Shown: positions 4,698-35,021 of the stretch, one piece after another | Layout: each line of letters begins with the position of its first letter | Position numbering within the stretch: position 1 is the first letter of the stretch | IMG/VR virus record: IMGVR_UViG_3300037131_000042 | Location: 1 to 35,108 of that record | Direction: 5' to 3' (one strand) | DNA from: a virus | DNA length: 35,108 nucleotides | Notes under the pieces: model-generated | What the model saw: the letters and a program-made list of their open reading frames with translations, nothing else | What the model was told of the DNA's origin: nothing | The model's database searches: none | Position numbers and translations under genes: made by a program

Positions 4698-5114
4698 ATG
4701 AGGGTCGAATACAGCCAGAGCGCCGCGAACACTGACGCCTTCGCCTTGATCGCGGAGGGTTGGAACGATCTGGTCCAAGAAGGGCACACGCCCGACCAAG
4801 ACGCGATCTCTCCGGTCGGCCCCGGAGACGAAGTTCTCTACGCTATCAGCAAGGACGGCGACATTGTGGGCGTGCTGACCTTCAAGGTCGGCGAGCGGCC
4901 CCGCGTCGCGCGCATCACCCTCGCCTACGTCGAGCCATCCAGCCGCAGGCGCGGCGTCTTCAAGGACCTCGCGTCCGAATTGCGCCGGCTCTGCAAGGAG
5001 CGAGGGCTCGCGCGCATTGACTGCTTCATCTCCCCTCAGAACGACCTCGCTCAATACGCGGCGAAGGAGCTCGGCGGCTACCCGCAGGCCGTCGTGGTCT
5101 CGGTTCCCGTCTGA
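4698..5114 (+). CDS. GNAT-family N-acetyltransferase
   Basis: 138 aa. GNAT fold: YAISKDGDIVGVLTF (beta 2-3), ARITLAYVEPSSRRRGVFKDLASELRR, with SRRRGVF matching the acetyl-CoA-binding R/QxxGxG/A loop around residues 82-88, then GLARIDCFISPQN and YAAKELGGYPQAVVV. AAGGAG precedes ATG 4698. The acceptor may be a host protein, small molecule or modified base; nothing in the sequence decides this. Confidence 0.75.
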   Translation: MRVEYSQSAANTDAFALIAEGWNDLVQEGHTPDQDAISPVGPGDEVLYAISKDGDIVGVLTFKVGERPRVARITLAYVEPSSRRRGVFKDLASELRRLCKERGLARIDCFISPQNDLAQYAAKELGGYPQAVVVSVPV

Positions 5115-5130: not shown

Positions 5131-5451
5131 ATGGCGCAACCGAATTTTTGGGGGGGTCTGATCTCGCAGTTGCGCGAGGAGCAGAAAATCTCCCAAAGGA
5201 CGCTCGCGGCGCGGGCTAAGGTTCACCGGGCCACGCTGCGCCGGATCGAGGACGGCTCGACGTCCAGCGACATTGACACGATGGAGCGGCTCCTCAACTA
5301 CCTCGGCTATGAGCTGGAAGCCCTTGAGCGCACGTCGATGTCCGACCGGTTGCGTCTGCAAAGCCAGCTCGAAGAGAACGCCGCGCGCCGCGCCGCGCTC
5401 GACGCAAAACGCTTGTTGACCATGGATTTCGGTTTGCTGTCTCGGACCTGA
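5131..5451 (+). CDS. XRE-family HTH regulator with helical tail
   Basis: 106 aa. The HTH domain spans about residues 8-60 (ISQLREEQKISQRTLAARAKVHRATLRRIEDG, then DIDTMERLLNYLGYELEAL), followed by a charged helical tail (SDRLRLQSQLEENAARRAALDAKR) that could mediate dimerisation. GGAG precedes ATG 5131. The next promoter, whose -10 is overlapped by palindrome 6, begins inside the end of this gene. An autoregulated repressor next to its own operator is a plausible reading, and this is a candidate for the protein that binds the dispersed palindrome. Confidence 0.85.
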   Translation: MAQPNFWGGLISQLREEQKISQRTLAARAKVHRATLRRIEDGSTSSDIDTMERLLNYLGYELEALERTSMSDRLRLQSQLEENAARRAALDAKRLLTMDFGLLSRT

Positions 5452-5496: not shown

Positions 5497-5599
5497 GTGA
5501 ACCGGGCTCAGAAAAGCGCAACGAGGATATTTCGAACTGGACCCCGAGACGCGGGTCGACAGAATGGCGACGGCACAACACAAGGGAGGCCGCCCATGA
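5497..5599 (+). pseudogene. Small ORF with apparent one-base frameshift
   Basis: AAGGAGGG (5483-5490) is perfectly placed for GTG 5497 (reading NRAQK), but the protein-like sequence downstream (AQRGYFELDPETRVDRMATA, then QHKGGRP) is in another frame and ends with a TGA (5597-5599) overlapping the next start as ATGA. Dropping one A from the AAAA run at 5512-5515 joins the two into one 34-aa protein. This is a mutation, a sequencing error or a recoding site. Confidence 0.4.
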
Positions 5600-5826
5600 C
5601 GATGGAAGATTTTCTCCGCGAGGTCCTCGCGATAGCGAACGAGAAATTCCCTGAGCATCGCGTTTTGCTGCTTGGCTCCACGGACCTCGACAACGGCAGG
5701 CAAGCCGAGGCCACGATCATGACGAACATGGAGCAGGACGAGGTCGACCTGATGTTCGCCACCTTCCGCCGTGATGGCGTAGAGCTCGAAGACGACGTCG
5801 AGGTCGAACACTTGAGGTCGCACTAA
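5596..5826 (+). CDS. Acidic hypothetical protein, 76 aa
   Basis: ATG 5596 follows GGGAGG and overlaps the preceding TGA (ATGA). The product (TMEDFLREVLAIANEKFPEH, then VLLLGSTDLD, MEQDEVDLMFATFRRDGVEL) is acidic and predicted alpha/beta; no family is recognised. Its TAA shares bases with the ATG of the RapZ-like gene (TAATG), so the two are translationally coupled and may act together. Confidence 0.6.
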   Translation: MTMEDFLREVLAIANEKFPEHRVLLLGSTDLDNGRQAEATIMTNMEQDEVDLMFATFRRDGVELEDDVEVEHLRSH

Positions 5827-6161
5827 TGGCCATCAAGATCATCTCGTTCGGCTTCAAATACGGCAAGGCCCCTCCCGATGCCAAGGTCTTCGATTGCCGC
5901 CCTCTCGACAATCCGCACCACGTCACCGCGTTGCGCGACCTGACCGGCCTTCATGAGGACGTGGCGGCGTTCGTGCTTAGCGACCGCGCCGCGAAGGACC
6001 TAGCCAGTAGGGCCGTTGTCGACGCACAGGATGGCGACACGCTTGCTTTCGGTTGCGTCGGCGGTCGACACCGTTCCGTTGTTCTCGCCGAGAAGGTCGC
6101 CACCACCTTGGCCGCCTTCGATTACGAGGTCGAGGTCGAGCACACCGCTATGAAACACTAG
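5826..6161 (+). CDS. Stand-alone RapZ C-terminal-domain protein
   Basis: 111 aa matching only the C-terminal domain of RapZ (YvcJ family): IISFGFKYGKAPPDAKVFDCR, then LDNPHHVTALRDLTGLHEDV, then the signature GCVGGRHRSVVLAE at residues 76-89. The N-terminal Walker-type kinase domain of full-length RapZ is absent. In enteric bacteria this domain binds small RNA GlmZ, directs RNase E to it and senses glucosamine-6-phosphate. Short RapZ-C proteins exist in some bacteria and phages, but their function is not established to my knowledge. A role in redirecting host RNA decay is inference. Confidence 0.8.
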   Translation: MAIKIISFGFKYGKAPPDAKVFDCRPLDNPHHVTALRDLTGLHEDVAAFVLSDRAAKDLASRAVVDAQDGDTLAFGCVGGRHRSVVLAEKVATTLAAFDYEVEVEHTAMKH

Positions 6162-6180: not shown

Positions 6181-6786
6181 ATGGCGCAGTTGTCCGCGCA
6201 AAGCATAAGCAAGCTATGCAAGCCCACGAAATGGTTCGGGTTGCGCGAGCAGCAGCCGATGATCGTGCCATTCGTGCCCGAGAAGGTCGTCACGCGCGGC
6301 AAGAGCTTCGGCCTGTCCGCCGCGTCCTATGACGTGCGGATCGCTCACGACTTGACGCTCGGCGTCAATCCCGGCGTCATCGTCGAGAAGCACGTGCGCC
6401 GATACGGCCTAAGCGCCTCGAAGGAGCACTATCTCCAGCAGGCGCTCGCCGCCAACGAGCCTTATCACGCGCTGGCGCATACGATCGAAGACTTTTACAT
6501 GCCCGACAATGTCGTCGGTTACGTTTGCGACAAGAGTAGCTACGCCCGCGTGTTCGTGACGGCGTTCAACACGCTGTTCGACCCGGGCTTCAAGGGCAAC
6601 GCCACACTCGAACTCGTGAACCTCGGGTATGAGCCTGTCGAGATCATGGCCGGCGACCCGATTTGCCAGTTCACGTTCCACTGGCTCGATAAAACGACCG
6701 ACCGCCCCTATGCTGGAAAATACCAGCACCAGAAGAAGGTGGCGACGCCGGCTCGTTTCGAGCGCGAAGACGGGTCTTGGACTTAA
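6181..6786 (+). CDS. dcd: dCTP deaminase / dUTPase-family protein
   Basis: 201 aa. Trimeric dUTPase/dCTP deaminase fold: SYDVRIAHDLTL, then FYMPDNVVGYVCDKSSYAR (KSSYAR at about 118-123), FNTLFDPGFKGNATLELVN with the likely catalytic Glu at 144, GDPICQFTF, and PYAGKYQHQK. The end YxGKYQxQ is diagnostic of dCTP deaminases, which make dUTP for thymidylate synthesis and so feed ThyX. AAGGAGG precedes ATG 6181. The residues around 63-95 form a longer insert than in the usual 188-aa bacterial enzyme. Confidence 0.88.
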   Translation: MAQLSAQSISKLCKPTKWFGLREQQPMIVPFVPEKVVTRGKSFGLSAASYDVRIAHDLTLGVNPGVIVEKHVRRYGLSASKEHYLQQALAANEPYHALAHTIEDFYMPDNVVGYVCDKSSYARVFVTAFNTLFDPGFKGNATLELVNLGYEPVEIMAGDPICQFTFHWLDKTTDRPYAGKYQHQKKVATPARFEREDGSWT

Positions 6787-6872: not shown

Positions 6873-7382
6873 GTGGTGAAAGTCTATACGGTCGGTCATT
6901 CCAATCATGGCCCGGAAAAGTTCGTCGGCCTACTCAAGCAGCATGGGATCACGATGTTGATCGACGTGCGCTCCAAGCCCCATTCGCGGATGCCGTGGTT
7001 TCAGCGCGACCGCCTCCTCAAGCTGATGGAGGAAAGCGAGATCGGCTACAAATATGGCGGTATGGTGCTCGGCGGTATGTGCGGCCATCTCGTCGGCTCC
7101 CCGCTGTTCATCTCCAAGATGGAGACTGTGCTGGAGCTGGCGGCCGGGCAAGGCGTGGCGCTCATGTGCGCCGAGGGCAAGCCGAACGAGTGTCACCGCG
7201 CCGGCAAGTTGACCGCGTTCCTTCACCGCAACCATCCGAAAGTCGAGACACGGCACATTCTGACCTCTGGCGAGACGATTTCCGCCAAGGAGTTCGAACC
7301 CAAGGTCAACGTCAACGTGCGCTGGAAGGAATATGCGCCGAATTGGACGCCCGACCTGCTTGCGACGCTTGACAAGAAGTGA
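6873..7382 (+). CDS. DUF488 family protein
   Basis: 169 aa. Family features: VYTVGHSNHGPEKFVGLLK at the start, LIDVRSKPHSRMPWF, LGGMCGHLVG, and the conserved VALMCAEGKPNECHR near residues 96-110. DUF488 proteins occur widely in bacteria and phages, often near DNA-modification or mobile genes; the conserved Cys and His suggest a redox or metal-dependent enzyme, but activity is unknown. AAGGAGG lies 5 bp before GTG 6873 (GTG 6876 also possible). It directly precedes the modification-like cluster. Confidence 0.82.
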   Translation: MVKVYTVGHSNHGPEKFVGLLKQHGITMLIDVRSKPHSRMPWFQRDRLLKLMEESEIGYKYGGMVLGGMCGHLVGSPLFISKMETVLELAAGQGVALMCAEGKPNECHRAGKLTAFLHRNHPKVETRHILTSGETISAKEFEPKVNVNVRWKEYAPNWTPDLLATLDKK

Positions 7383-7393
7383 AGTTAATGGCA
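7380..7393. repeat. Dispersed palindrome, copy 8 (degenerate)
   Basis: TGAAGTTAATGGCA, two mismatches to the consensus. It spans the TGA of the DUF488 gene and the ATG of the next gene. Confidence 0.5.
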
Positions 7394-8314
7394 CACGGAG
7401 ACAACGCGGGTGCCGCAGCGGCGCGGCTTTCCCTTTCCCGGGGAAATGGTGGTTTCGATGCTCACCACCCGCTCCAAACCTTCCTCGACAATTTGCCGAA
7501 CTCGCGTTACGCCATGCCGAATTGCGGCGCGGCGGCTTTCGCTTTTTCGCCCTTGAACGCCCTTCCCAAGATCGCCCTCGGCAAGTGGGAGGTCTTGGCG
7601 GATGACGGCGTTATGATCCTAAAGTCGAAGGACGGCGTGCATCGCGTCATGCCGACAGGCACGCGCGAGCAGTATTATCACGCGCTATGCTCCATGCTGG
7701 CGCACGGCGAGGCGCTGGCGCTCGTCCCCGAGTGGGCCGCGACCGTCTTCAAGCGCCATTACACGGTCAAGAAGCAACACGAGGAGTATATCTTCTCGAC
7801 CGACGACGTCTTGACCCTGCCGGGCGCGCGTCTTCGCCAGCTGCGCGGCAATGTGAACAAGGCGAGCAAGCTCTGTTCAGTCGAGTTCTATACGGGCGAC
7901 GGCGGCGACGCCGAGTATCTGGCACTGAACGCCAAGTGGTATCGGCAGAACGCCGGCCTCAAGTTCAGGACATACGACAAGACGTCGATCGACTGGTTGC
8001 TCAATAATTGGCGCGCGATCAAGGACACGGTTCCCGACGCGGCGCTGTTCGGCGTTCGCGAGCGCGCGACTATGCAATTAATTTCACTTAATCTCGGTTG
8101 TGTGTTATCGACCGGAACGTGGACGGCCTACACGCAACGCTTCGACCGCGAGGCGAAGGTGAAGGCGGCGAACACCCTCGGCAAGCTGTCGCTGGCCACG
8201 GTGTTTTCCGGTTTGCCCGAGGAGAACAACGGGACGGCCGACACGAAGACCATTCGCGAGAACAAGGAGAGGCTCGCGATCCGCAGGCAACCCTTTTTCA
8301 CGGTGACGAAGTGA
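7388..8314 (+). CDS. DUF2156-like acyltransferase-fold protein
   Basis: 308 aa. The stretch YIFSTDDVLTLPGARLRQLRGNVNK (about residues 130-155) matches DUF2156, a GNAT-fold family (C-terminal domain of lysylphosphatidylglycerol synthases), and the later part has GNAT-like spacing (VRERATMQLISLNLG, TGTWTAYTQRFD). The first 40 residues look atypical and the start could be later. A palindrome copy (8073-8086) lies within the codons of MQLIS. The TGA overlaps the GTG of the methylase-like gene, so it is the first member of a coupled set at 7388-11073. Confidence 0.6.
   Translation: MAHGDNAGAAAARLSLSRGNGGFDAHHPLQTFLDNLPNSRYAMPNCGAAAFAFSPLNALPKIALGKWEVLADDGVMILKSKDGVHRVMPTGTREQYYHALCSMLAHGEALALVPEWAATVFKRHYTVKKQHEEYIFSTDDVLTLPGARLRQLRGNVNKASKLCSVEFYTGDGGDAEYLALNAKWYRQNAGLKFRTYDKTSIDWLLNNWRAIKDTVPDAALFGVRERATMQLISLNLGCVLSTGTWTAYTQRFDREAKVKAANTLGKLSLATVFSGLPEENNGTADTKTIRENKERLAIRRQPFFTVTK
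8073..8086. repeat. Dispersed palindrome, copy 9 (intragenic)
   Basis: TGCAATTAATTTCA inside the DUF2156-like gene; one mismatch in the right arm. Confidence 0.65.
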
Positions 8315-9354
8315 GTTCATTCGATCTGATCGGCAAAGGCTTGCTCCCGTTCATGGGCGGGATGCGGCGCTTCATCCCGTTCCTGTTCAACGCCGCGCGC
8401 GAGGTCGTTCCCGAGGCCGAATGGCACAAGTGGAGCTACCTCGACATGACCTGTGGAAGCTGCGCCGGCTCGGCCGCGTTCGGCTTCTACGGCATGAGCG
8501 TCACCGCGAACGATCTCGCCATGCGCTCCTATATCCCGGCCAAGGTCATCTTCGGCAAGGCGCGCTCCCGGCCCGCCGTGTTTCGCAAGATCATCATGGC
8601 GGCGCAATGCGCGGACCTCGTGCCCGAGGGCAAGAAGCCGGGGTTTCAGTTGATCCCCAAGCACTTGCACCCGCTCGCCTGCAACATGTTCGACGCCCTC
8701 TATTACGCCAGCGAGCGCGGCGACGTGTCTGAGGCCGAGGCGGATTATTACCGCTACATGGCCATTCGATGGGTCTTGTTGAACAAGAACTATATGTATT
8801 TCCTCAAGGTTCCGACGTTCGACCTGAGGCAGCTGCGTGTCCAAGGCAAGCCTTGGGAGAAGGTCGTCGACGTGATCACGAACCCGCTCCCGGCCTTGAC
8901 GAAGGTCGCGCGCGACGTCGATCACCTGATCCACGCCGAGCAGTCCGCCCGTCACCAACGCGAGCCGCTCATCATGCGCGGCGATTGCCGGCAGAACATC
9001 AAGAACGTGCAATGGGACCGGCCGAGCTTCGTCGGCTTGAACCCGCCGACCATTGGCAACAGCACGTTCATGCAGTCGAACCGCGTCCTCGACACGCTGC
9101 TGTTCAACGAGCCTCAGCCGCAGGACGACGACATGATGCCCGGCGACCTCTGGCGCTCATTGATCCTCGACACGACGGAGCACGTGCCGCCCGGCCATTA
9201 CGTGTTCAGCTTCGTCGGCGACGGCGCGCTGACGTGGGAGGAAGGTTGCGAGCAGGTCTTCGCCAAGGTCGGCCCGATCATCAAGGAATGGTCGTTCCCG
9301 TGGCATGGCAACGCGGACAAGAAGGCGGGCCTCGTCCTGCTACGGAGGGCCTGA
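8311..9354 (+). CDS. D12-class DNA methyltransferase-like protein
   Basis: 347 aa from GTG 8311, coupled to the previous gene by GTGA. Rossmann-type SAM-binding motif at about 45-68: LDMTCGSCAGSAAFGFYGMS followed by VTANDL, in the style of D12-class adenine methylases (DxFxGSG...NDI). The catalytic motif expected as DPPY is present as LNPPTIGNSTF around residue 243, so the aromatic residue is lost. That suggests either another substrate or a non-methylating SAM-fold protein. The middle part resembles the substrate region of such enzymes (ANDLAMRSYIPAKVIFG). The neighbours suggest DNA base modification. Confidence 0.6.
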   Translation: MSSFDLIGKGLLPFMGGMRRFIPFLFNAAREVVPEAEWHKWSYLDMTCGSCAGSAAFGFYGMSVTANDLAMRSYIPAKVIFGKARSRPAVFRKIIMAAQCADLVPEGKKPGFQLIPKHLHPLACNMFDALYYASERGDVSEAEADYYRYMAIRWVLLNKNYMYFLKVPTFDLRQLRVQGKPWEKVVDVITNPLPALTKVARDVDHLIHAEQSARHQREPLIMRGDCRQNIKNVQWDRPSFVGLNPPTIGNSTFMQSNRVLDTLLFNEPQPQDDDMMPGDLWRSLILDTTEHVPPGHYVFSFVGDGALTWEEGCEQVFAKVGPIIKEWSFPWHGNADKKAGLVLLRRA

Positions 9355-10238
9355 TGCTGGCTAAGCGCCGTCTCGACAAGATCAGCGACCAGAACCGTTG
9401 GCTGCGCGAACTGTGCGGCTTCGAGGAGCAAGCCCTCGCGATGGTTCGCCCGGTCGATCTCGCGACCATGGAGCCCGAGATCATCGAGTGCCGTAAGGGC
9501 GACGCCAACGTCATGTTCAATTACTGGCGAGCGGTGTTGTCGTCGGAGCCTCAGGGTAAGAGCTATTCGTGGTATGGCCGCTCGGCGTCGTTCTTGGTTC
9601 GCGACAGGGTGAGCGGGGGCTTCCTCGGCGTGTTCGCTATCTCTGACCCGCCGAACACGCTCAAGCCGATGCTGCGGCATTTCAAATGGGACGAGAATGA
9701 GGAAGCGCGCCTTGCGCGCCAGCATCAGGCGCTGATGCTGCGCCGCTGCTTGCCGATTTACGAGTTCGGGCAGATGACCGGTGGCAAGCTGTTGGCGCTC
9801 GCGGCGACCAGCCAAGAAGTGCTGCGCCTCTTCGAACTCAGGTATTCGTTCCAGTTCGTCTATTTTCTGATCCGCACGTTGCACGGAAAGTCGAGCCAAT
9901 ACAACCGGCTCCAGCAGCGCGGCATCGAGCTGATCGAGGTCGATGCCGAGAACAAGGGCTTCTACGGCATGGAGCTGCGCAAGAAGGCGCTGGCCTACAT
10001 GCGCGAGGGCACGCCCTACGGCAAGACCGCCATGCATAAGCTCGGCGATCAGGTCGACTATTGGAAGGACCGTTGGCTCAATGCTCGCGTGCAGAGCACC
10101 GGCAACCCGTCCCTGATCACCCCCGACCCCGAACGCTATCGCTTGTCGAACCAGCTCGACAGCAAGCGCATGACCCCGGCCGCGATCGAGGCCGCAGAAC
10201 TGGAGAAGAAGAATGGCGATGACGGCGCAGTTGAGTAA
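9354..10238 (+). CDS. DUF4338 / DruA-like protein
   Basis: 294 aa; ATG 9354 overlaps the previous TGA, with GGAGGG before it. Family-like segments: GGFLGVFAISDPP, ARQHQALMLRRCLPIYEFGQMTGGKLLALAATSQEV (GGKLLAL at about 143), and HGKSSQYNRLQQRGIELIEV (about 177). This L-GGKLLAL ... GKSSQYNRL pairing is what I know from DUF4338, the family of DruA in Druantia anti-phage systems, which is also found in phages. Phage versions sit near methylase- and ParB-like genes. Biochemical function is not established here; an acyltransferase-like role in base modification is a guess. Confidence 0.6.
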   Translation: MLAKRRLDKISDQNRWLRELCGFEEQALAMVRPVDLATMEPEIIECRKGDANVMFNYWRAVLSSEPQGKSYSWYGRSASFLVRDRVSGGFLGVFAISDPPNTLKPMLRHFKWDENEEARLARQHQALMLRRCLPIYEFGQMTGGKLLALAATSQEVLRLFELRYSFQFVYFLIRTLHGKSSQYNRLQQRGIELIEVDAENKGFYGMELRKKALAYMREGTPYGKTAMHKLGDQVDYWKDRWLNARVQSTGNPSLITPDPERYRLSNQLDSKRMTPAAIEAAELEKKNGDDGAVE

Positions 10239-11073
10239 GGCGGAAGTTCACGACCCGGACGCGATCGACTTCCGCATGGTGTCGATCGACGAACTGACGC
10301 CGTTCGCTGGAAACCCGAATGACATGGAGGCCGAGTTCTTCGAGGCCATCGTGTCGCAGGTCAAGGACGAGGGCATGAACCAGCCCATCCTCGTGCGGCC
10401 CGATCCGGTCGCCGAGGGGCGCTTCGTGATCGTCGACGGCGAACACCGCTGGAAGGCGGCGAAGATCGCCGGCCGCAAGAACATCGCCATCATCGTCGTG
10501 CCGTTCGACGAGAAGACCGCCAAGGTGCGGACCCTGTCGATGAACAACTTACGGGGCCAGAACATCCCGATCAAGTTGGCCCGCTTGCTGGTCGACCTTC
10601 ACAAGGAGTTCTCGCCCGCCGACGTTCGCAAGATGACCGGTATCGGCGAGGAGGATCAGACCTCGGTGCTCGAACTGCTCAAGGTTCCCGACTTCAAGCC
10701 GAGCGATGGCGTCAAGCTGTCGGCGGCGGACGTGGAGCGCCCGATCACCGTCACCATCGGTCTGTTGCCAGACGAGCACGGCCCCTACACGCACGCGATC
10801 AAGAAGGCGATGAAGCTGATGGGCGACGACGTGGTCGCGCTGGTCGGTCATGAGGTCGCCGATTACGATCAGGCGATGAAGGCTTCGATGGGCGTCGCCG
10901 GGGCCAAGCTCCGCAACGTGGCGCTCGCCATCATCTGCGAGACCTTCAATCACCTGCCCAAGGACCAGCTCCTCGCCGCCGCGCAGGCCGCGCACAAGAA
11001 GATTTACGACAAGCTCGCGCAGGACGCCGAGCACAAGGAGGCCAAGAAGCAGGCCGCCGACAAGGCGCACTAA
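10213..11073 (+). CDS. ParB/Srx-fold nuclease-like protein
   Basis: 286 aa. Start ATG 10213 lies within the end of the previous gene (26-bp overlap). The N-terminal ParB domain is clear: FRMVSIDELTPFAGNPNDME, QVKDEGMNQPILVRPDP and FVIVDGEHRWKAAKIAGRKN (DGEHRW at about 75-80). No ParB-type central HTH is obvious; the C-terminus is a long Ala/Lys helix (KKQAADKAH). In phages such proteins often accompany DNA-modification enzymes or terminases rather than partition systems, and no parA or parS is visible. It ends 13 bp before the terminase small subunit candidate. Confidence 0.75.
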   Translation: MAMTAQLSKAEVHDPDAIDFRMVSIDELTPFAGNPNDMEAEFFEAIVSQVKDEGMNQPILVRPDPVAEGRFVIVDGEHRWKAAKIAGRKNIAIIVVPFDEKTAKVRTLSMNNLRGQNIPIKLARLLVDLHKEFSPADVRKMTGIGEEDQTSVLELLKVPDFKPSDGVKLSAADVERPITVTIGLLPDEHGPYTHAIKKAMKLMGDDVVALVGHEVADYDQAMKASMGVAGAKLRNVALAIICETFNHLPKDQLLAAAQAAHKKIYDKLAQDAEHKEAKKQAADKAH

Positions 11074-11086
11074 GGAGGCAGCGGGG

Positions 11087-11743
11087 ATGGCGAGGATCAC
11101 GATCAGGAAGAAGACCGTCGGCAAGAACGAGCTCAAGAAGCTCGGCACCAAGGCCGATGCGGCGCTGCTTCCCCCCAAGATCACCATCCCCGACGACCCG
11201 ACATTCGTTCGCGAGGGCGATGACAAGGAGCTGCACGACGAGCAGCAGGTGCTTCGCGTCGAAATTCTGATGACGAAGGGCATCCGCAATCGCCGGCAGC
11301 TCACCACCTTGCTGAACATCAAGGACCTCAAGACAACCGACCGTTACATCGCCCGCGTGCACGCTCGTTGGGAGATGAACGGGACGCAGCAGGATCACGC
11401 CCGCAGTCGCGGCGAAGGCCTCAACCGTCTGGACTTGATCGAAAGCGAATTGTGGTCCAAATTGCAGAACCAAGGAGATGATCGCATCTCGGTGTCCATC
11501 CTGAACACGATCTTGCAGGTTCAGAGACAGCGAAGCGAGATGCTTGGACTGACGCCCAAGGTCATCGAGCGCATCGGGAGCATTGAAGCCGAAGGTGCGA
11601 CTTTCACGCGGCAGGCTATAGCCCACGACCGTTTGACGATGCTCGCTCAGCGCATGATGTCGCTGATCGAGGACCGCGCGAAGACCATTGATCAGGTGCC
11701 TAATGAAAACCGGACGTCCGACATACAGCCGAGTGACGGATAA
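11087..11743 (+). CDS. terS: Probable terminase small subunit
   Basis: 218 aa, immediately upstream of and overlapping the large terminase by 41 bp. Residues about 60-105 hold a HTH-like segment (EILMTKGIRNRRQLTTLLNI, then TTDRYIARVHARWEMN), followed by a helical region (LNRLDLIESELWSKLQ, then ISVSILNTILQVQRQRSEMLGL) resembling the oligomerisation part of small terminases. AAGGAGG precedes ATG 11087. The name rests mainly on position and HTH content; sequence conservation in this family is always low. Confidence 0.6.
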   Translation: MARITIRKKTVGKNELKKLGTKADAALLPPKITIPDDPTFVREGDDKELHDEQQVLRVEILMTKGIRNRRQLTTLLNIKDLKTTDRYIARVHARWEMNGTQQDHARSRGEGLNRLDLIESELWSKLQNQGDDRISVSILNTILQVQRQRSEMLGLTPKVIERIGSIEAEGATFTRQAIAHDRLTMLAQRMMSLIEDRAKTIDQVPNENRTSDIQPSDG

Positions 11744-13619
11744 GGACCTCGACTTCATCGCTCAGCAGTTGCTGGAAGAGTTCGCCGACGACTATCCCGA
11801 GGACCTCGACATGGTCTTGTCGTGGATCAAGGAGGCCGCGACCGGCCGCGACGCCATCATGCGTCTCGCCAAATTCAAATATCCGCCTGTCGGGCCGCGC
11901 GAGTTCATCGAGAGCAAGGCTTACATGGACAAGGTCGGCGTGCTTTGGCCAAGGGTGATGGACGAGTTCGAGGAGATGAACTCGGGCAAATATACGGAGA
12001 GTGTGCTGACGGGCGGCATCGGCGTCGCCAAGACGACCATCGCCCTCTACAGCCAAGCCTATCAGCTCTACCAGCTGTCGTGCCTGCGCAACCCGCACGA
12101 GGAGTTCGACCTCGACCCCTCGTCCGAGATCGTCGTCATTTTCCAGTCGCTCAACGAGAAGCTGGCCAAGGACGTGGACTATGCGCGCTTCCGCGACATG
12201 CTCGCCAACGCGCCCTATTTCCGCCGCCAGTTCCCGTTCGACCGGTCGCGCGAGAGCGAGATGCGCTTTCCGAACCGGATCGTCGTCAAGCCGGTGTCGG
12301 GCCAAGACACTGGCGCGATCGGCCAGAACGTGATTGGCGGCATCATCGACGAAATCAACTTCATGGCCGTCGTCGAGAACTCGAAGGTCAACAAGGACGG
12401 CGCGACATACGACCAAGCGGTCCAGAATTACAACTCGATCGCCCGCCGCCGCGAGAGCCGCTTTATGCAGAAGGGGACGCTCCCGGGGATGTTGTGCCTC
12501 GTCTCGTCTCGCAACGACCCCGGTCAGTTCACGGACGTCAAGGAGATCGAGGCGCGCACGAACCCGCGCATCTTCGTCTATGCCAAGCGCCTGTGGGACA
12601 TTCGGCCCGAGCGGTTCACGGGCGACAAGTTCCGCGTCTTCATCGGCGACGAGACCCGCAAGCCGCGCATCCTGCTCGACGAAGAGGTCGCCTCGACCGA
12701 GGACCAGCCGCTCGTGATGGCGATCCCGACCGAGTATAAGGCTTCGTTCGAGAACGACATGCTGCGCTCGCTGCGCGACGTGGCCGGCGTCTCGACGCAG
12801 GCGCTACACCCCTTCATGTTGAACACGGACGCGGTCGCGAAGTGTTTCGGCGTCGTGCAATCAATTGCATCTCGTGACGACGTGGACTTCGCCGACACCA
12901 AGCTGCAAATCCTTCCCGACCGGATCGTCAACCCGGACGAGCCGCGCTTCGCCCATATCGACTTGTCGATCAGCAAGGACAGCTGCGGCGTCAGCATCGG
13001 CCACATTTCGCACTTCGAGCACGTCAATCGCGGCGACCACGTGGAGCCGCTCCCGGTCATTCGTTTCGACATGCTGCTTGAGGTCCGCCCGCCGCGCGGC
13101 GGCGAGATCATTTTCGACAAGATCAGGCGCTTGCTATATGTGTTGCGCGACGACCTCAAACTGCCGCTCAAATACGTTTCGTTCGACCAGTTCCAGTCCA
13201 AGGACAGTATGCAAATCCTGCATCAGGCCGGCTTCATGGTCGGCTACCGCTCGATGGACACGGACACGTGGGCATACGACATGACGAAGCAGGCGTTCTA
13301 TGACGGCCGCATCCTCGCGCCCGAGCACCAGAAGGCGCAGTCGGAGATGGTTCGCCTTGAGATCGACCACAAGAAGCACAAGATCGACCATCCGCCGAAC
13401 GGCTCGAAGGACGTGGCCGACAGCATGGCCGGCGTCGTCATCGGGCTCACCATGCGCCGCGAGCTATGGGTGCGCCACAAGATACCGCTGAACCGCATCC
13501 CCAAGTCGATCGCCGACGCCAAGGCCGAGCGGCCCGCCGTCAAGGACCAGTCCTATATGGACACGATCCGCAAGGCGCGCGGCGTGGTTCCGAAGGAAAG
13601 CTACGATGAAGCGGTATGA
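11703..13619 (+). CDS. terL: Terminase large subunit
   Basis: 638 aa. ATPase: Walker A GGIGVAKTTIAL at about 104-115, Walker B GGIIDEINFM at about 211-220. Nuclease: first acidic residue in HIDLSISKDSCG near 418, later acidic sites in the RNase H-like fold (SFDQFQSKDS; DHPPNGSKDVADSMAG). The length fits phage packaging motors. ATG 11703 is chosen over 11688 because it leaves the shorter overlap with terS. Palindrome copy 10 falls at codons for VQSIA in the linker between ATPase and nuclease. The stop overlaps the start of an HNH gene by 14 bp. Confidence 0.92.
   Translation: MKTGRPTYSRVTDKDLDFIAQQLLEEFADDYPEDLDMVLSWIKEAATGRDAIMRLAKFKYPPVGPREFIESKAYMDKVGVLWPRVMDEFEEMNSGKYTESVLTGGIGVAKTTIALYSQAYQLYQLSCLRNPHEEFDLDPSSEIVVIFQSLNEKLAKDVDYARFRDMLANAPYFRRQFPFDRSRESEMRFPNRIVVKPVSGQDTGAIGQNVIGGIIDEINFMAVVENSKVNKDGATYDQAVQNYNSIARRRESRFMQKGTLPGMLCLVSSRNDPGQFTDVKEIEARTNPRIFVYAKRLWDIRPERFTGDKFRVFIGDETRKPRILLDEEVASTEDQPLVMAIPTEYKASFENDMLRSLRDVAGVSTQALHPFMLNTDAVAKCFGVVQSIASRDDVDFADTKLQILPDRIVNPDEPRFAHIDLSISKDSCGVSIGHISHFEHVNRGDHVEPLPVIRFDMLLEVRPPRGGEIIFDKIRRLLYVLRDDLKLPLKYVSFDQFQSKDSMQILHQAGFMVGYRSMDTDTWAYDMTKQAFYDGRILAPEHQKAQSEMVRLEIDHKKHKIDHPPNGSKDVADSMAGVVIGLTMRRELWVRHKIPLNRIPKSIADAKAERPAVKDQSYMDTIRKARGVVPKESYDEAV
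12856..12869. repeat. Dispersed palindrome, copy 10 (intragenic)
   Basis: TGCAATCAATTGCA, preceded by G, inside terL. No promoter follows, so binding here could only affect elongation or DNA structure. Confidence 0.85.
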
Positions 13620-14124
13620 GTTCGGCAGCTCAACGCTAACGCTGGAGCGGCTCAAGACGCTTTTGCACTACGACCCCGAAACGGGGTTGTGGACTTGGCG
13701 CGTGAACAAGGGTCGAGTGAAGGCCGGAAGCATTGCCGGGTGTTCGACGCGCGGGTATTGGGTTTTGCGCGTTGATCAGCACAACTACCTCTCGCATATT
13801 CTCGCGTGGTTCTACATGACCGGCGAGTGGCCCGAGCATGAGGTCGATCATCGCGATCTCGACAAAGGCAACAATCATTGGGACAATCTAAGGCCAGCCA
13901 CGGACGTGCAACAAGAGTGGAACAAACCGCCGTCTAAAGCTCGCCCTAATACGCAGACCGGATTTGTTGGTGTGTATCAAACGAAGGGCACGATCTACGC
14001 TCGAATACAGACCAACGGGGAGCGCGAGTATATGGGTCCGTTCTCTACGTTCGAGGAGGCGGCGTTGGCCCGCGAAAAGCGCGCTAGGGAATTGCGTGGG
14101 GAGTTCTATCGTGGCACGCTATAG
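13606..14124 (+). CDS. HNH endonuclease with AP2-like C-terminal domain
   Basis: 172 aa. Starts with the NUMOD-like LTLERLKTLLHYDPETGLWTWR, then the HNH core VDHRDLDKGNNHWDNLRPAT (about 81-100), then an AP2-type DNA-binding domain (TGFVGVYQTKGTIYARIQTN, then PFSTFEEAALAREKRARELRG). This is the classic free-standing phage homing endonuclease architecture. It starts inside the end of terL and ends 14 bp into the next gene, so it is squeezed between them without disrupting either. Lower GC than its neighbours supports lateral arrival. Confidence 0.88.
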   Translation: MKRYEFGSSTLTLERLKTLLHYDPETGLWTWRVNKGRVKAGSIAGCSTRGYWVLRVDQHNYLSHILAWFYMTGEWPEHEVDHRDLDKGNNHWDNLRPATDVQQEWNKPPSKARPNTQTGFVGVYQTKGTIYARIQTNGEREYMGPFSTFEEAALAREKRARELRGEFYRGTL

Positions 14125-15448: not shown

Positions 15449-15478
15449 GAAGTTGTCACGGAATACATGGAGGTTGAA

Positions 15479-17377
15479 GTGACCAAACGCATCTATAAAT
15501 TCTCGGGTTCTACTTGCGAGTGGACTGGTGACGAAAAAGCCGCCAAGACTATCCTCGGCGGCAAGGGCGCTGCGCTCGTGAAGATGGCCAAGGACGGCAT
15601 GAACGTGCCGCCCGGCTTCACGATCACCACGGAGATTTGCAACGCCTACCGCGCGTCGAACTCCAAGGACGTTTTCATCGCCGGCCTGATGGAAGAAGTC
15701 GTCCAGAACATGGAGTGGTTGCGCGAGCAGTTCGGCTTCATGCCGCTGGTCAGCGTTCGCTCGGGTGCGCCGGTTTCCATGCCGGGCATGATGGACACGA
15801 TCTTGAACGTCGGCCTGACGACTGAAACCGCGCAGGCTTGGGTCGAGCGCATCGGCCATCGCGCCGCGCGCGACAGCGAGCGCCGGTTGATCCAGATGCT
15901 CGGTTCGACCGGCTACGGCGTCCCGCATGAGGTCTTCGAGTTCCAGCTCGCCAAGGCCAAGCAGCATTACGGCGCGAAGCAGGACACTGATCTCGATGGG
16001 TCGCAGCTGGCGCACGTTTCCGACCTCTATCTCGCCGCCTTCGAGCAGAACAAGGGTCACAAGTTCCCGAGCAATAATTCGCTGGAGCAGCTGCGGGTCG
16101 CCATCAAGGCGGTCTTCGATAGCTGGATGAACCCTCGCGCGATCGAATATCGCAAGCTGAACAATATCAGCGAGGACATGGGGACCGCCGTTAACGTGCA
16201 GGCGATGGTGTTCGGCAACATGGGCGACGACAGCGGCTCGGGCGTGCTGTTCACGCGCGACCCGTCGACCGGAGCGCAGGGCGTCATGGGCGAATATCTG
16301 ACCAACGCCCAAGGCGAGGACGTGGTCGCCGGTATTAGGACCCCGTTCGACCTTCACAAGTTCAGCGGTTACGGCTGGTATGCCGAACTGATGCACGTTT
16401 GCGAGAAGCTCGAAGCGAGCTACCTCGATATGGTCGACGTCGAGTTCACGGTCCAGCAGGGCAAGCTGTTCATCCTCCAGAGCCGCAGCGGCAAGCGCAG
16501 CGCCCGCGCCGCGTTCAAGATCGCCGCCGACCTGTGGCAAGTTGGTGTGATCAAGCACGACGAGGTCTTCAAGCGCCTGACGGTCGAGCAGTTCAAGACC
16601 GTCCGTCGCCCGACGATCGACCCTAAGTTTAAGCTGAACGCTGATTGGATCGGCCTCCCGGCTTGCCCGGGCGTCGTGACCGGCAAGCCTGTGTTTTCGT
16701 CGGACGATGCAGTTAATTGCAGCGAGCTCTGTATCCTGATCACGCACGAGACCAGCCCGAACGATATTGCCGGGATGGCCAAGGCGGTCGGCATCCTGAC
16801 GCAGACCGGGGGAGCCACCAGCCATGCGGCGGTCGTCGCCCGCGCGATGGACAAGGCTTGCGTGGTCGGTTGCACCGAGCTCGACATGGATCACTTGAAG
16901 AAGCACGCCAAGAAGGTCACGATCGACGGGTCGACCGGCAAGGTGTGGGTCGACGTGGACGTTCCGGTGATCGACAGCTCGGACGCCGAGGAAGTCGCCC
17001 TGATCGGTCGGATCGCGCTGGCTCATCTTGAGGTTCCCGAAGCGACCCCGGTCGATCTGGACGTCGGGCACGCACAGGTCATCTTCGCCGCCCATTGGTG
17101 GGGCAGCACGGACGCGCTGGACGCCGTGTTGCACGGCATCAAGGGGAATTACGGCAGCAGTTACATCAAGCTGGACACCACGGCCCCTTCGCAGTTCGCG
17201 CAGGAGAGCGACAAGCTGCTGGCCAACTGCTTCGGCGAGATCGAAGACGAAAAGCCCTTCCTCGCCGCCATCCTGAACAAGGTCAACGAGACGGAAGAGC
17301 TTGACGGCCTGACGGTCGGCAGCGGCTACACGGCGTATCCGACCGATTACGCAGTCTTCAAAGTTCTGGCCAAATAG
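15479..17377 (+). CDS. Pyruvate phosphate dikinase-like protein lacking the PEP barrel
   Basis: 632 aa; GTG 15479 chosen because GGAGG ends 5 bp before it (ATG 15467 would overlap that site). The nucleotide-binding part matches PPDK: LGGKGAALVKMAKDGMNVPP, VSVRSGAPVSMPGMMDTILN, GTAVNVQAMVFGNMG and SGVLFTRDPSTGAQG, then FILQSRSGKRSARAA. The phosphohistidine domain follows, with catalytic His449 in TQTGGATSHAAVVARAM. The C-terminal TIM barrel that binds PEP/pyruvate (about 350 residues) is missing and is replaced by about 120 residues of unknown type (VIFAAHWWGSTDALDAVLHG). So it could phosphorylate its His from ATP but needs another acceptor. Palindrome 13 lies within it. Confidence 0.85.
   Translation: MTKRIYKFSGSTCEWTGDEKAAKTILGGKGAALVKMAKDGMNVPPGFTITTEICNAYRASNSKDVFIAGLMEEVVQNMEWLREQFGFMPLVSVRSGAPVSMPGMMDTILNVGLTTETAQAWVERIGHRAARDSERRLIQMLGSTGYGVPHEVFEFQLAKAKQHYGAKQDTDLDGSQLAHVSDLYLAAFEQNKGHKFPSNNSLEQLRVAIKAVFDSWMNPRAIEYRKLNNISEDMGTAVNVQAMVFGNMGDDSGSGVLFTRDPSTGAQGVMGEYLTNAQGEDVVAGIRTPFDLHKFSGYGWYAELMHVCEKLEASYLDMVDVEFTVQQGKLFILQSRSGKRSARAAFKIAADLWQVGVIKHDEVFKRLTVEQFKTVRRPTIDPKFKLNADWIGLPACPGVVTGKPVFSSDDAVNCSELCILITHETSPNDIAGMAKAVGILTQTGGATSHAAVVARAMDKACVVGCTELDMDHLKKHAKKVTIDGSTGKVWVDVDVPVIDSSDAEEVALIGRIALAHLEVPEATPVDLDVGHAQVIFAAHWWGSTDALDAVLHGIKGNYGSSYIKLDTTAPSQFAQESDKLLANCFGEIEDEKPFLAAILNKVNETEELDGLTVGSGYTAYPTDYAVFKVLAK
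16708..16721. repeat. Dispersed palindrome, copy 13 (intragenic)
   Basis: TGCAGTTAATTGCA inside the dikinase-like gene (codons for DAVNC), in the linker before the phosphohistidine domain. Confidence 0.85.
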
Positions 17378-17967: not shown

Positions 17968-17982
17968 GCCATGGAGGGCAAA

Positions 17983-18495
17983 ATGGGACTTGATATTGCT
18001 GCTGGACCGAACGGGCATCTGCCGCTCAATTTCGGTTGGCGCGGCGCGTTCAAGAAGGTCAAGATCGCGGGCGGGCCGTATGACTTCTTCCCGCATGAGA
18101 CGAAGGGCGCTTTCGGTGTCTGCGTCCGCGCCGAGCGCGTCGACCCCTCGAAGGTCGATCTGCACTTGCCGATCGGGGACTTCTCGGTGCCGCGCGACGC
18201 CGCCGAGGTTCGCCGCGTCATCGTCGAAACGCTGCGCGTCGCCTTAAAAGGTCACGACGTCTACGTCGGCTGCATGGGCGGCTGGGGCCGCACGGGCTTG
18301 TTCCTCGCGTTGCTGGCCAAGGCCGCTGGCGTCAAGGACCCGGTCCGCTACGTGCGCGAACATTACTCTAAGCGCGCGGTCGAAACGAAGGAGCAGCAGC
18401 AATACGTCGAGCATTTCGATGTTGGCCCGCTGCCACGCGACATGTTCGTCGCCGCTTGGCGCAATCGCTTCTTCGAGGCGTTCGGACTGCGTTAA
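17983..18495 (+). CDS. Dual-specificity phosphatase-like protein 1
   Basis: 170 aa from ATG 17983 (GGAGG at 17973). The cysteine-phosphatase P-loop CX5R is visible as GCMGGWGRTG with Cys97 and Arg103; the candidate general acid lies in LPIGDFSVPRDAAE, about 30 residues before. Downstream VRYVREHYSKRAVETKEQQQYV matches the helix after the P-loop in DSPs. The histidine normally preceding the Cys is replaced by Gly. A paralogue is encoded at 20128. Substrates could be host phosphoproteins, RNA 5' ends or phosphoinositides. It ends the operon at the 18503 terminator. Confidence 0.8.
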   Translation: MGLDIAAGPNGHLPLNFGWRGAFKKVKIAGGPYDFFPHETKGAFGVCVRAERVDPSKVDLHLPIGDFSVPRDAAEVRRVIVETLRVALKGHDVYVGCMGGWGRTGLFLALLAKAAGVKDPVRYVREHYSKRAVETKEQQQYVEHFDVGPLPRDMFVAAWRNRFFEAFGLR

Positions 18496-19676: not shown

Positions 19677-20113
19677 GCGTCCGCAAGCACATTCGTCCCA
19701 AAGACATTGTCACGATGGCGAAGCATCTGCTGTCGATCGCGACGCCAGATGGCGAGTGTCTTGTTCTTGACCCGGGGAAGAAAGATCGGCCGTATGTGCA
19801 GTTCAAAGGGGTGTGCTGGCCAGCGGCGCGTTTAGTGTTCGCTGCTCTGGTCGAAGACCCGGGTGATGATGACGTGCACCACATTTGCGAGAACAAGCCG
19901 TGCATATTTCCAGAGCATTTGGAGCGCAAGACGCGCGCTGACCATCTGGCGGTGCACGATCATTCAGCGTTTCAGCGGGATAAGACGCATTGCCCGCACG
20001 GACACGCCTACACGGACGAGAATACGGCAATCTATAACGGCAAACGCATTTGCCGCGAGTGTAATCGAACCAGCGCCCGCGAACGGTGGCGGTTGCGTTG
20101 TTGGGGCGTCTAG
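19673..20113 (+). CDS. HNH endonuclease
   Basis: 146 aa. HNH core: DDDVHHICENKPCIFPEHLE (about 63-82) followed by RADHLAVHDH, then a zinc-binding part THCPHGHAYTDENTAIYNGK and RICRECNRTSARER with C-H and C-C pairs. The N-terminus has the AHR-type segment (VCWPAARLVFAAL). It is inserted with an ATGA overlap after the 359-aa gene and 14 bp before the second phosphatase gene, again without visibly breaking a neighbour. Lower GC than flanks. Confidence 0.85.
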   Translation: MSVRKHIRPKDIVTMAKHLLSIATPDGECLVLDPGKKDRPYVQFKGVCWPAARLVFAALVEDPGDDDVHHICENKPCIFPEHLERKTRADHLAVHDHSAFQRDKTHCPHGHAYTDENTAIYNGKRICRECNRTSARERWRLRCWGV

Positions 20114-20127
20114 CCAAGGAGGGCGAC

Positions 20128-20889
20128 ATGTCGCGCAAGGGGTTAAATTCGATGGACTTTACGAACCGCAGTTCCGGTCGTCGGGGGGGCAGTCACGTGG
20201 ACGATTGGAGCGAGTTCGAGAAGAAGGTACGCAAGCTGGCCAATGATCCGGCGATCTCGAAGATTTACGACAACCTTCACGACGACAAGGGCGTCTATTA
20301 CAACGACGGGTCGTTCGGCGGCGGCTTCGCGCGCTGCTATGAGAGCCACCCGCCGCTCAAGCTGCCCGGGACGGAGTTCGTGATCTATGGCGGCTCGTGC
20401 TCCGCGCCGATCGTCAAGGACGCCGACATTTACATCGGCTTCGATAGCACGATGAAGGAGATGAACAAAAAGTTCCATTGGATCAAGGGCGACGAGGTCC
20501 GCTTCCTCATTCCCGACATGGGAGTGCCCAAGGACGCCGAGGAATTTCGGCGGATGGTCGAATGGGTGAAGAAGCAGCTGGCGAAGAAGGCCAAGATACA
20601 TGCCGGCTGCATCGGCGGGCACGGGCGGACCGGAACCTTCCTCGCGGCGCTCGTCAGCCTCTTCGGCGAGCAGGACGCGGTCGAATACGTGCGCAAGAAT
20701 TACTGCCACAAGGCGGTCGAGAGCGCGACGCAGACCAAGTTCCTGACCGATCAGTTCGGGATCAAGAAGGCCAAGGGGCACAAGAGCGGGTCGACCTCGG
20801 TCGTGTCGAAGACCGTCAACTATTCTCCCGCCAAGAGCGCGGGCAAGGATAGGTTCGCGCCGCTCCCGGGACAGGGCGGAATTTGGTAA
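20128..20889 (+). CDS. Dual-specificity phosphatase-like protein 2
   Basis: 253 aa from ATG 20128 (AAGGAGG upstream). The P-loop is GCIGGHGRTGTFLAAL with Cys161 and Arg167; the likely general acid is in LIPDMGVPKDAEEFRRMVEW. After the P-loop, EYVRKNYCHKAVESATQTKFL parallels the first phosphatase, so the two are paralogues about 2 kb apart. This copy has about 75 extra N-terminal residues and a Ser/Lys-rich tail. Probably transcribed with the 18597 gene and the HNH gene. Confidence 0.8.
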   Translation: MSRKGLNSMDFTNRSSGRRGGSHVDDWSEFEKKVRKLANDPAISKIYDNLHDDKGVYYNDGSFGGGFARCYESHPPLKLPGTEFVIYGGSCSAPIVKDADIYIGFDSTMKEMNKKFHWIKGDEVRFLIPDMGVPKDAEEFRRMVEWVKKQLAKKAKIHAGCIGGHGRTGTFLAALVSLFGEQDAVEYVRKNYCHKAVESATQTKFLTDQFGIKKAKGHKSGSTSVVSKTVNYSPAKSAGKDRFAPLPGQGGIW

Positions 20890-22287: not shown

Positions 22288-22682
22288 ACAAGTCGGACCT
22301 TTACAGCGTCGCGGACATTCTCGGGATGACCGTCGAGCTCGATTACGCGACCGGCAAGCTATCCGGCAAGGCCGAGCGCGCGATGTTCCTTGGCGACCTC
22401 TCCCTCCCCTTGAAGCCGAAGATCGCCGGCTCGCTGCTGCTGCCCGAGTGCATTTTCGCCGCCGTCAACGTGCTCGGCAATCTCGCCTTGCTCGTCGTCA
22501 TCAGTGAAAGCGGGCCGCAAAGGTGCACGGTCCACGTGCTGAACCTCGCCAAGATGGACCAGCTCGACACGTGGCTGGACAAGAAGAAACCGAAGACGCG
22601 CGGGGAGGCGCTGGAGCTGCTCGGCAGCGCGGTCGTCAAATCCTATCGCCGCGTCAACACGACCAAATGGGAGCCAATGTGA
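22272..22682 (+). CDS. Hypothetical protein, 136 aa
   Basis: GTG 22272 with GGGGAGG upstream. Beta-rich: LYSVADILGMTVELDYATGK, MFLGDLSLPLKPKIAGSLLL, FAAVNVLGNLALLVVISESG, VHVLNLAKMDQLDTWL, then a Lys-rich helical end. Not recognised. Followed by the palindrome and HNH gene that separate it from polA. Confidence 0.6.
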   Translation: MDFQVNKSDLYSVADILGMTVELDYATGKLSGKAERAMFLGDLSLPLKPKIAGSLLLPECIFAAVNVLGNLALLVVISESGPQRCTVHVLNLAKMDQLDTWLDKKKPKTRGEALELLGSAVVKSYRRVNTTKWEPM

Positions 22683-22689
22683 CCTGTGA

Positions 22690-22711
22690 GCCAAGTTTGC
22701 AATTAATGGCA
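22690..22711 (+). repeat. 22-bp direct repeat, copy a
   Basis: Identical over 22 bp to 23635-23656; it contains palindrome copy 17 and the start codon of the HNH gene. The other copy lies in the polA coding region. Confidence 0.85.
22698..22711. repeat. Dispersed palindrome, copy 17 (imperfect)
   Basis: TGCAATTAATGGCA; the ATG of the HNH gene (22706) is inside it. Confidence 0.75.
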
Positions 22712-23203
22712 TGTTTGACGCACGAGCGACTGTTAGAGCTACTTGATTACGACCCCGCGACCGGGGTGTTTCGCTGGCGCGTCTCGCCGAACAATCGCGT
22801 CAAGGTCGGTAGTGTCGCCGGGGCAGTTCGACCCGACGGTTATAGCCAGATCAGGATCGACGGGAAGCGTTACATGCTCTCACGATTGGCCGTCTTCTAC
22901 GTGGAGGGCAAATGGCCAACCAAATTGGTCGACCACAAGAACCGGACGCGCACGGACGCCCGCTATGCGAACTTGCGGCACGCCACACAACAGCAGAATT
23001 GCGCGAACAGGAGTTTGGCAAAAAACAACAGCACCGGCTTGAAGGGCGTGCATTACGACGCATCCCGTGGCCTCTATCGTGTGCGGATAATGCGGAATGG
23101 AGTTCGGCGTTCACTTGGGTTCTTCGTTGAAAAGGAAGCGGCAGGCGCGGCTTATAATGATGCCGCCGTCCCGCTGGATGGAGAGTTTACCGCATGTCTC
23201 TGA
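22706..23203 (+). CDS. HNH endonuclease with AP2-like domain
   Basis: 165 aa. Same build as the gene at 13606: ACLTHERLLELLDYDPATGV, FRWRVSPNN, VDHKNRTRTDARYANLRHAT (HNH core at about 78-97), then AP2-type STGLKGVHYDASRGLYRVRI and SLGFFVEKEAAGAAYN. The start ATG 22706 lies within palindrome 17 and has no good ribosome binding site. Its stop overlaps the polA start by 10 bp. Together with the intein and its nested enzyme it makes polA a hot spot for homing elements. Confidence 0.85.
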   Translation: MACLTHERLLELLDYDPATGVFRWRVSPNNRVKVGSVAGAVRPDGYSQIRIDGKRYMLSRLAVFYVEGKWPTKLVDHKNRTRTDARYANLRHATQQQNCANRSLAKNNSTGLKGVHYDASRGLYRVRIMRNGVRRSLGFFVEKEAAGAAYNDAAVPLDGEFTACL

Positions 23204-34632: not shown

Positions 34633-34689
34633 ATGCTGCTCGCCTCGGTCGCCGACGTTCGGAGCCAGCTCGGCTTCGCCAAATGCTGA
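34633..34689 (+). pseudogene. 5' remnant of head-tail connector gene
   Basis: ATG 34633 starts one base after the previous stop and reads LLASVADVRSQLGFA, the usual beginning of gp6-like head-tail connectors (LxxVADVRxQLGF), then stops at TGA 34687 because the HNH gene has been inserted. The 3' part may resume at 35020 in the same frame. Confidence 0.5.
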
Positions 34690-35021
34690 CCCATGAGCGG
34701 CTGTTGCAACTTTTGACCTACGATCCCGTCACCGGAGTTTTTCGGTGGCGGTATTCTAGGCGAGGTTGTTCCGCAGGGGCTGTCGCCGGCCGTGTTAAGC
34801 CTGACGGTTATCGCCAAATCATGCTTGATAGTCGAGCCTATTACGCTCAGCGTTTGGCGTTATTCTATGTGACGGGAGAATGGCCTGAGCGCGAAGTCGA
34901 CCATAAAGATGGCTGTAGGGACAATAACGCATGGTCGAATTTGCGTGATGCCACTCGTCGGCAAAATATGTGGAACACGAAGTTAGCCCGTCTTATTCAC
35001 CCGACCGACGCGCATTGCTGA
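34683..35021 (+). CDS. HNH endonuclease, short form
   Basis: 112 aa. LTHERLLQLLTYDPVTGVFR at the start, nearly the same as the 22706 gene, then VDHKDGCRDNNAWSNLRDAT as the HNH core (about 77-96) and RRQNMWNTK. The AP2-like domain found in the relatives is missing; the protein ends LIHPTDAHC soon after the HNH core, so it is a short form or truncated. It begins inside the connector remnant and has low GC. Unlike the others it appears to disrupt a structural gene. Confidence 0.85.
   Translation: MLTHERLLQLLTYDPVTGVFRWRYSRRGCSAGAVAGRVKPDGYRQIMLDSRAYYAQRLALFYVTGEWPEREVDHKDGCRDNNAWSNLRDATRRQNMWNTKLARLIHPTDAHC

Follow-up and report, generated by a model that had tools for sequence, protein, structure and literature searches.

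The C-terminal domain (CTD) of RapZ is known in depth solely from E. coli, where it serves as a sensor of glucosamine-6-phosphate (GlcN6P) and as a small RNA (sRNA)/RNase E adapter. As described in the structural accounts of E. coli RapZ (PMC9841335, PMC5737377), the CTD presents a malonate/sulfate pocket comprising H190, T248, G249, H252 and R253, with C247 and K170 close by, that is the likely GlcN6P site; RNA is contacted by K203, F208, R211, R238, K251, K270 and K281-K283, RNase E by T161, Y240, N271, Q273 and L279, and the N-terminal domain by Trp191. The strand involved in CTD dimerization corresponds to residues 179-182 (PMC5737377). The isolated CTD is described as binding both GlmY and GlcN6P, with the RNA-binding determinant being restricted to those Enterobacteriaceae that possess GlmY/GlmZ (PMC7073468). 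At the same time, the CTD by itself is described as insufficient for RNase E-dependent cleavage of GlmZ (PMC5737377), such that recruiting RNase E cannot be ascribed to the CTD on its own.

The same domain, here termed RapZ_C, is also encoded by phages and plasmids, with its fold, its family and the GenBank labels 'RapZ-like protein' and 'RNase adapter RapZ' being already known. The family considered here includes PHROG 18111 ('ATPase'), RcZahn gp140 ('RapZ-like protein') and RHph_TM16 EVB27_119 ('ATPase domain-containing protein'). Phage RapZ_C is labeled 'ATPase' (PHROG 18111; GenBank QIG66788.1, QIG76955.1) even though the ATP-binding half is absent; as this label was inherited from full-length RapZ, it is inapplicable to the phage proteins. 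Indeed, both 'ATPase' and 'RNase adapter' are misleading names for the phage and plasmid genes. Among the open-access papers searched, none dealt with phage RapZ_C, and the paper describing RcZahn is silent on RapZ.

The stretch of viral DNA analyzed here, hereafter referred to as the window, is an IMG/VR record of 35,108 bases, in which a stand-alone RapZ CTD had been predicted from the sequence. The ORF in question begins with an ATG at position 5826, ends with a stop codon at 6159-6161 and contains, exactly as predicted, the motifs FGFKYG (aa 8-13), LDNPHH (aa 27-32), LTG (aa 39-41) and GCVGGRHRSVVLAE (aa 76-89). The predicted protein matched Pfam PF22740 across positions 1-120 of the 121-position profile (E 2.6e-27; 95.9 bits, the cut-off being 27), a phmmer search of the PDB returned only RapZ (top entry 5o5s, E 7e-13), and the score obtained against the full-length RapZ family NCBIfam NF003828 was 88, under the cut-off of 244. 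An AlphaFold2 (AF2) model, generated from an alignment of 61 sequences comprising the window RapZ_C and homologues from virus records, was of high confidence (pLDDT 96.7; pTM 0.90). At E <= 0.001, a Foldseek search with this model recovered RapZ chains alone, and VIA-align superimposed the model on 5o5s with a Z score of 18.5 (rmsd 1.8 Å over 110 residues; 37% identity), in agreement with the structural similarity to the RapZ CTD that had been anticipated. The next families were at background levels (Z < 6), namely borosin methyltransferases (5.8), PFK (4.8) and PtpB (4.7), such that no similarity in fold to protein tyrosine phosphatases (PTPs) is claimed. The Pfam match, the AF2 model and the VIA-align score likewise rule out a chance ORF or a frame artefact. 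As the open frame spans just 128 codons, no N-terminal domain is fused to the window RapZ_C, nor was any P-loop kinase-like domain detected in that frame. The ORF is confirmed as encoding a complete, isolated RapZ CTD. The coordinates of this and other features of the locus are listed in Table 1.

Table 1. Position of the window RapZ_C, its conserved elements and the surrounding genes.
Feature	Coordinates	Strand	Evidence
GNAT acetyltransferase, conserved upstream partner	4698..5114	+	PF00583 6.1e-9; synteny
Cro/C1-type HTH protein, conserved upstream partner	5131..5451	+	PF01381 1.1e-11; synteny
Small ORF, 76 aa, upstream of RapZ_C	5596..5826	+	no Pfam/PHROG match; relative in L166 (32%)
RapZ_C, stand-alone, 111 aa	5826..6161	+	Pfam PF22740, PDB phmmer, AF2, VIA-align
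K20-V-F-D-C-R25, CTD dimer strand YVFD (179-182) and R184 equivalent	5883..5900	+	alignment
N29-P30-H31, with pocket residue H31 (= H190)	5910..5918	+	alignment to RapZ
Anion-pocket loop C77-V-G-G-R-H-R-S-V85 (= E. coli RapZ C247-V255; CX5RS string)	6054..6080	+	alignment to RapZ
dCTP deaminase-like, first gene of type I cassette	6181..6786	+	PF22769 6.3e-18; phrog_1663 3.6e-44
DUF488 protein, cassette	6873..7382	+	PF04343 3.8e-15
LPG_synthase_C-like (GNAT-fold), cassette	7379..8314	+	PF09924 5.6e-8
DruA-domain protein (Druantia-type family), cassette	8769..10238	+	PF14236 6.9e-11, aa 199-382
ParB-like, TerL-proximal cassette edge	10213..11073	+	PF02195 1.5e-12
Terminase large subunit (TerL)	11688..13619	+	61.6% to RcZahn terminase, 51.7% to TM16 TerL

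The window RapZ_C shares whole-domain homology, fold and anion pocket with the E. coli RapZ CTD (5o5s; PF22740), with the dimer strand being largely kept, and differs from E. coli RapZ in having no P-loop N-terminal domain, in being shorter near residues 228-238 and in its genomic setting. When residues were compared by alignment to Salmonella RapZ, pocket residues K170, H190, C247, G249, H252 and R253 were found to be kept as K11, H31, C77, G79, H82 and R83, respectively, with the T248/G249 backbone positions being occupied by V78/G79. In the dimer strand, V21-F22-D23 are kept and K20 replaces the tyrosine of YVFD. Judged from this alignment, the window protein keeps the putative GlcN6P-sensing malonate/sulfate pocket, rendering the sensory half of the original prediction plausible. 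Across 98 virus and plasmid copies, C247, G250, R253 and S254 are present in all, D182 and H252 in 97 and H276 in 96, although that part of the loop conservation covered by the GxHRSV or CxGGxHRSV patterns used in two of the scans was partly imposed by those patterns. H276 appears in none of the patterns, C247 is missing from the pattern of one scan and, of the two patterns employed in the other scan, a single one includes D182. Moreover, copies retrieved by pattern-free tblastn from the phage collection (L002-L006, L008-L010) also contain the pocket loop.

By contrast, the residues that would be needed for sRNA binding and RNase E recruitment, the other activities ascribed to the CTD in the original prediction, are replaced. 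Of the RNA-binding positions, K203, R211, K270 and K281 align with E44, S52, Y100 and H111, and the protein ends before R282/K283. The RNase E contacts T161, Y240, N271, Q273 and L279 align with A2, G70, E101, E103 and M109, and Trp191, through which the two halves of RapZ meet, with H32. The same holds for the 98 virus and plasmid copies, none of which contains K270, N271 or W191, and of which two contain Q273 and one contains Y240. Furthermore, the relatives of the window phage infect alphaproteobacteria, unlike the Enterobacteriaceae to which the RNA-binding determinant is confined. A role for the window RapZ_C as a host sRNA/RNase E adapter is, as far as its sequence can tell, not supported, and the proposal that it steers host RNA decay finds no footing, given the missing residues and the reported insufficiency of the CTD alone for GlmZ cleavage (PMC5737377). 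The protein probably serves phage chemistry or DNA packaging instead.

A tree of 152 RapZ_C domains was used to address the origin of the window RapZ_C; cellular sequences account for 85 of these, and phages, virus contigs and plasmids for the other 67. A single branch (support 87/92) split the mobile-element from the cellular domains, in a tree that, being based on a short domain, with moderate support and root unknown, shows separation and not direction. The window RapZ_C falls within an alphaproteobacterial-phage clade that includes TM16, Y1_11, L012, L013, L014 and L016 (97/91). In 79 of the best 80 cellular matches in GTDB genomes, the domain is preceded in its frame by at least 160 residues, which fits full-length RapZ; the exception, L157, is stand-alone. 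The window RapZ_C is 35% identical to Paracoccus RapZ versus 40-48% identical to phage copies. It is unlikely that the window phage recently acquired the CTD of a host RapZ, as phage copies are closer than alphaproteobacterial RapZ and the tree separates the two. With moderate support, the window protein can be placed in a separate virus/plasmid lineage of stand-alone RapZ CTDs. Streptomyces plasmids and actinobacterial elements likewise carry stand-alone RapZ_C, annotated as 'RNase adapter RapZ', which groups with the mobile-element domains in the tree; unlike the window protein, these copies are found on plasmids or integrative elements, present longer tails and, in one case (pSTS2), are Nudix-fused. 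Many database 'phage' matches containing full RapZ proved to be bacterial contigs, among them Acinetobacter MD-2021a (beside ptsO), a Salmonella contig and Microcystis MaAM05 (beside a gluconeogenesis factor); such mislabeled sequences were kept solely as cellular references. In related pairs, silent changes outnumber amino-acid changes, pointing to selection on these copies; dN/dS was about 0.09 (L062/L066), 0.23 (TM16/L012) and 0.18 (L164/L165), with silent changes being near saturation in several pairs. RapZ_C diverges faster than do neighboring genes, with the window and L169 being 45% identical in RapZ_C versus 66% in the dCTP deaminase-like protein. One locus (L186) contains two RapZ_C copies, at 1600 and 6986.

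Neither GlmZ nor the bacterial RNase E pathway is expected in the eukaryotic hosts of giant viruses. RapZ_C-like folds are nonetheless found in Klosneuvirus, Yasminevirus, Hyperionvirus and Pithovirus (BFVD A0A1V0SIZ8, A0A5K0UAE1, A0A3G5A6C5 and A0A481Z1D5), making it unlikely that the general job of the domain lies in that pathway.

No DNA-level relatives of the window were detected in the phage collection. Nonetheless, the order TerL, PPDK-like kinase, tyrosine-phosphatase-like protein, hypothetical protein, second phosphatase-like protein and DNA polymerase I is the same as in TM16, and, going by such relatives, the window is most likely part of a ~100-kb alphaproteobacterial phage of the RHph_TM16/RcZahn type. 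The stop codon of the 76-aa ORF overlaps the start codon of RapZ_C (TAATG), such that the two are probably translated together. RapZ_C was found in about 15 TM16-like phages, as well as in other phages and plasmids. In the TM16-like phages, the order GNAT-HTH-RapZ_C is kept ahead of a swappable enzyme cassette, with a ParB-hypothetical-TerL segment closing the region where the locus reaches far enough. One kind of cassette, encoding dCTP deaminase-like, DUF488, LPG-synthase-like and DruA proteins, is seen in the window, L164, L165 and L169, and in L172 and L174 without one or two of the genes; the DruA-domain protein is kept in L164, L165, L169, L172 and L174, and in the window its true start probably lies downstream of that listed. 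A second kind, encoding a protein that we read from its sequence as RarA-like, an epimerase, an aminotransferase and a glycosyltransferase, with a deacetylase and a methyltransferase being optional, is carried by TM16, Y1_11, L012, RcZahn, L166, L170 and L180, with L014 being mixed. RcZahn and TM16 thus present the gene order of the window up to RapZ_C and differ in having the sugar cassette. RapZ_C is thus retained whichever enzymes follow it, a pattern better matched by a helper or regulator that handles phosphate ligands in general than by a dedicated partner of a single enzyme.

In other phages, RapZ_C is joined to further domains. In Samwavirus and L072, RapZ_C is N-terminal to an HNH endonuclease within a single protein, the coordinates of RapZ_C-HNH fusions including L072:5717-6406 and L005:4001-4648. 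In phi16 (L009:3569-4666), the order is PNK-like P-loop domain, RapZ_C and HNH, and the fusion protein matches phrog_4581, a 'terminase small subunit' family, at 2.7e-80. In L009, L072 and L005, the fusion gene is located next to the end of the genome that carries the terminase. Single frames of ~620 aa combining RapZ_C, an S78 prohead protease and an HK97-type capsid protein (L058:7992-9854, L062:2816-4684, L066:2884-4752) follow terminase and portal genes, with the start in L066 overlapping the stop of the upstream gene in the portal position. An internal ATG ahead of the protease may give rise to a free protease-capsid product as well, leaving the RapZ_C-protease-capsid product putative. 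In BFK20, gp4 (RapZ_C) lies between the portal and gp5, a P-loop kinase-like and head maturation protease protein (L008:2998-4376), with the start and stop of gp4 and gp5 overlapping; the annotated start of gp4 is probably 48 bases too late. Association with the prohead protease does not hold as a general rule, as S78 was detected in 10 of 50 records, of which L058, L062 and L066 alone have it next to RapZ_C. In the Streptomyces plasmid pSTS2 (L081:5992-6876), RapZ_C is joined to a Nudix hydrolase domain. As read from sequence, these HNH, P-loop plus HNH, prohead protease plus capsid and Nudix fusions would place RapZ_C in phage or element functions. The HNH and protease partners seen in phrog_4581 (PNK-like P-loop and HNH) and phrog_9644 (P-loop and head protease) recur joined to RapZ_C or next to it in phi16, BFK20, Samwavirus and L058/L062/L066, whereas the window RapZ_C is a free single domain with no such partner adjoining. 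Indeed, no PNK-like partner or AAA_33 domain was detected in the 35 kb window record, and the nearest HNH gene begins at 13606.

The fold, the pocket residues, the missing RNA and RNase E residues, the lineage, the gene order and the fusions seen in relatives provide the observed basis for a reading to which we assign an even chance, namely that the window RapZ_C is a homodimeric phosphate-binding module serving the phage's own pathways, with dimer, ligand and pathway being what we infer. In such a scheme, a CTD-type homodimer would form through the kept V21-F22-D23, and the Cys-X5-Arg-Ser loop, together with His31, His82 and Arg83, would grip a phosphate group borne by a phosphorylated sugar, a nucleotide or a nucleic acid backbone. 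RapZ_C would then work with the nucleic acid- or sugar nucleotide-modifying enzymes of the downstream cassette near the terminase region. Counting against this reading is the fact that two very different cassettes follow RapZ_C, with no constant enzyme partner. A PTP-like reading of the CX5RS string would draw on sequence and on the published malonate geometry. A nucleic acid role was not ranked first, as the acidic character of the protein (net charge -3, pI 6.0) argues against simple binding of a nucleic acid backbone.

Such a role would be central were the pocket to hold nucleic acid and hand it to a nuclease or head component of the phage, thereby doing in cis what RapZ does for RNase E in trans. 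The fusions to HNH in L072 and Samwavirus, the terminase-family match of the phi16 protein, the protease-capsid frames of L058, L062 and L066 and the position of BFK20 gp4 are all consistent with this idea, as is the contact described between the E. coli RapZ pocket and the GlmZ backbone (PMC9841335). Still, apart from its acidity, the window RapZ_C adjoins no HNH or PNK-like gene, AAA_33 is absent from the 35 kb, TerL lies 5.5 kb away and Vibrio and Stenotrophomonas phages with the same TerL are missing among the RapZ_C matches listed, making this explanation unlikely. The pocket could also be catalytic, with the C-X5-R-S loop, an Asp and a His forming a phosphatase or transferase site for sugar phosphates or nucleotides from which RapZ regulation was derived. 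Here, the near-invariance of C247, H252, R253, S254, D182 and H276 in copies without the RNA and RNase E residues, the Nudix fusion, the amino-sugar enzymes encoded immediately downstream in TM16/RcZahn-type phages and the apparent chemical transformation of GlcN6P soaked into the CTD pocket (PMC9841335) can be cited. Yet loop conservation was partly imposed by the search patterns, PtpB was matched only at background level, and the RapZ accounts consulted report no activity for the CTD, such that a cryptic enzyme seems quite improbable.

Equally hard to favor is a host-directed mimic that, by pairing with host RapZ, competing with it or sequestering GlcN6P, would disturb control of cell-wall precursors or RNA decay. 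Given the kept pocket and dimer-strand V-F-D, the phage protein and host RapZ might conceivably form mixed dimers, the E. coli CTD alone is described as binding GlcN6P and GlmY (PMC7073468), and the rapid divergence of RapZ_C relative to its neighbors also fits. Against this stand the absent RNA and RNase E contact residues, with the CTD reportedly not sufficing for GlmZ cleavage (PMC5737377), the confinement of the GlmY/GlmZ-binding determinant to Enterobacteriaceae (PMC7073468), a virus/plasmid lineage that is its own and does not track host RapZ, and the fact that other phages have RapZ_C fused to genes for nucleases and virion proteins. Returning to the phosphate-binding module, a broader and rather doubtful extension would have RapZ_C as a module of long standing in viruses and mobile elements that grips phosphate, perhaps catalytically, and takes part in packaging DNA, assembling heads and modifying nucleic acids or sugar nucleotides, with the enterobacterial sRNA/RNase E adapter being one late specialization. 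The virus/plasmid lineage, in which the pocket is present, the determinants for RNA and RNase E are absent and fusions occur, allows what the pocket does chemically to be told apart from how it is used in regulation, and phage RapZ_C offers small single-domain proteins for finding the ligand of the pocket.

Elsewhere in the window are three HNH_3-type endonuclease genes that are related to one another and probably encode homing enzymes (13606-14124, 22523-23203 and 34683-35021), the first being directly behind TerL, where none is annotated in TM16. A PPDK/PEP-utilizer-like phosphotransferase gene (15467-17377) is followed by genes encoding PTP-like phosphatases (17971-18495 and 20086-20889), and the DNA polymerase A encoded at 23194-26421 contains an intein-like splicing domain (aa 557-794).
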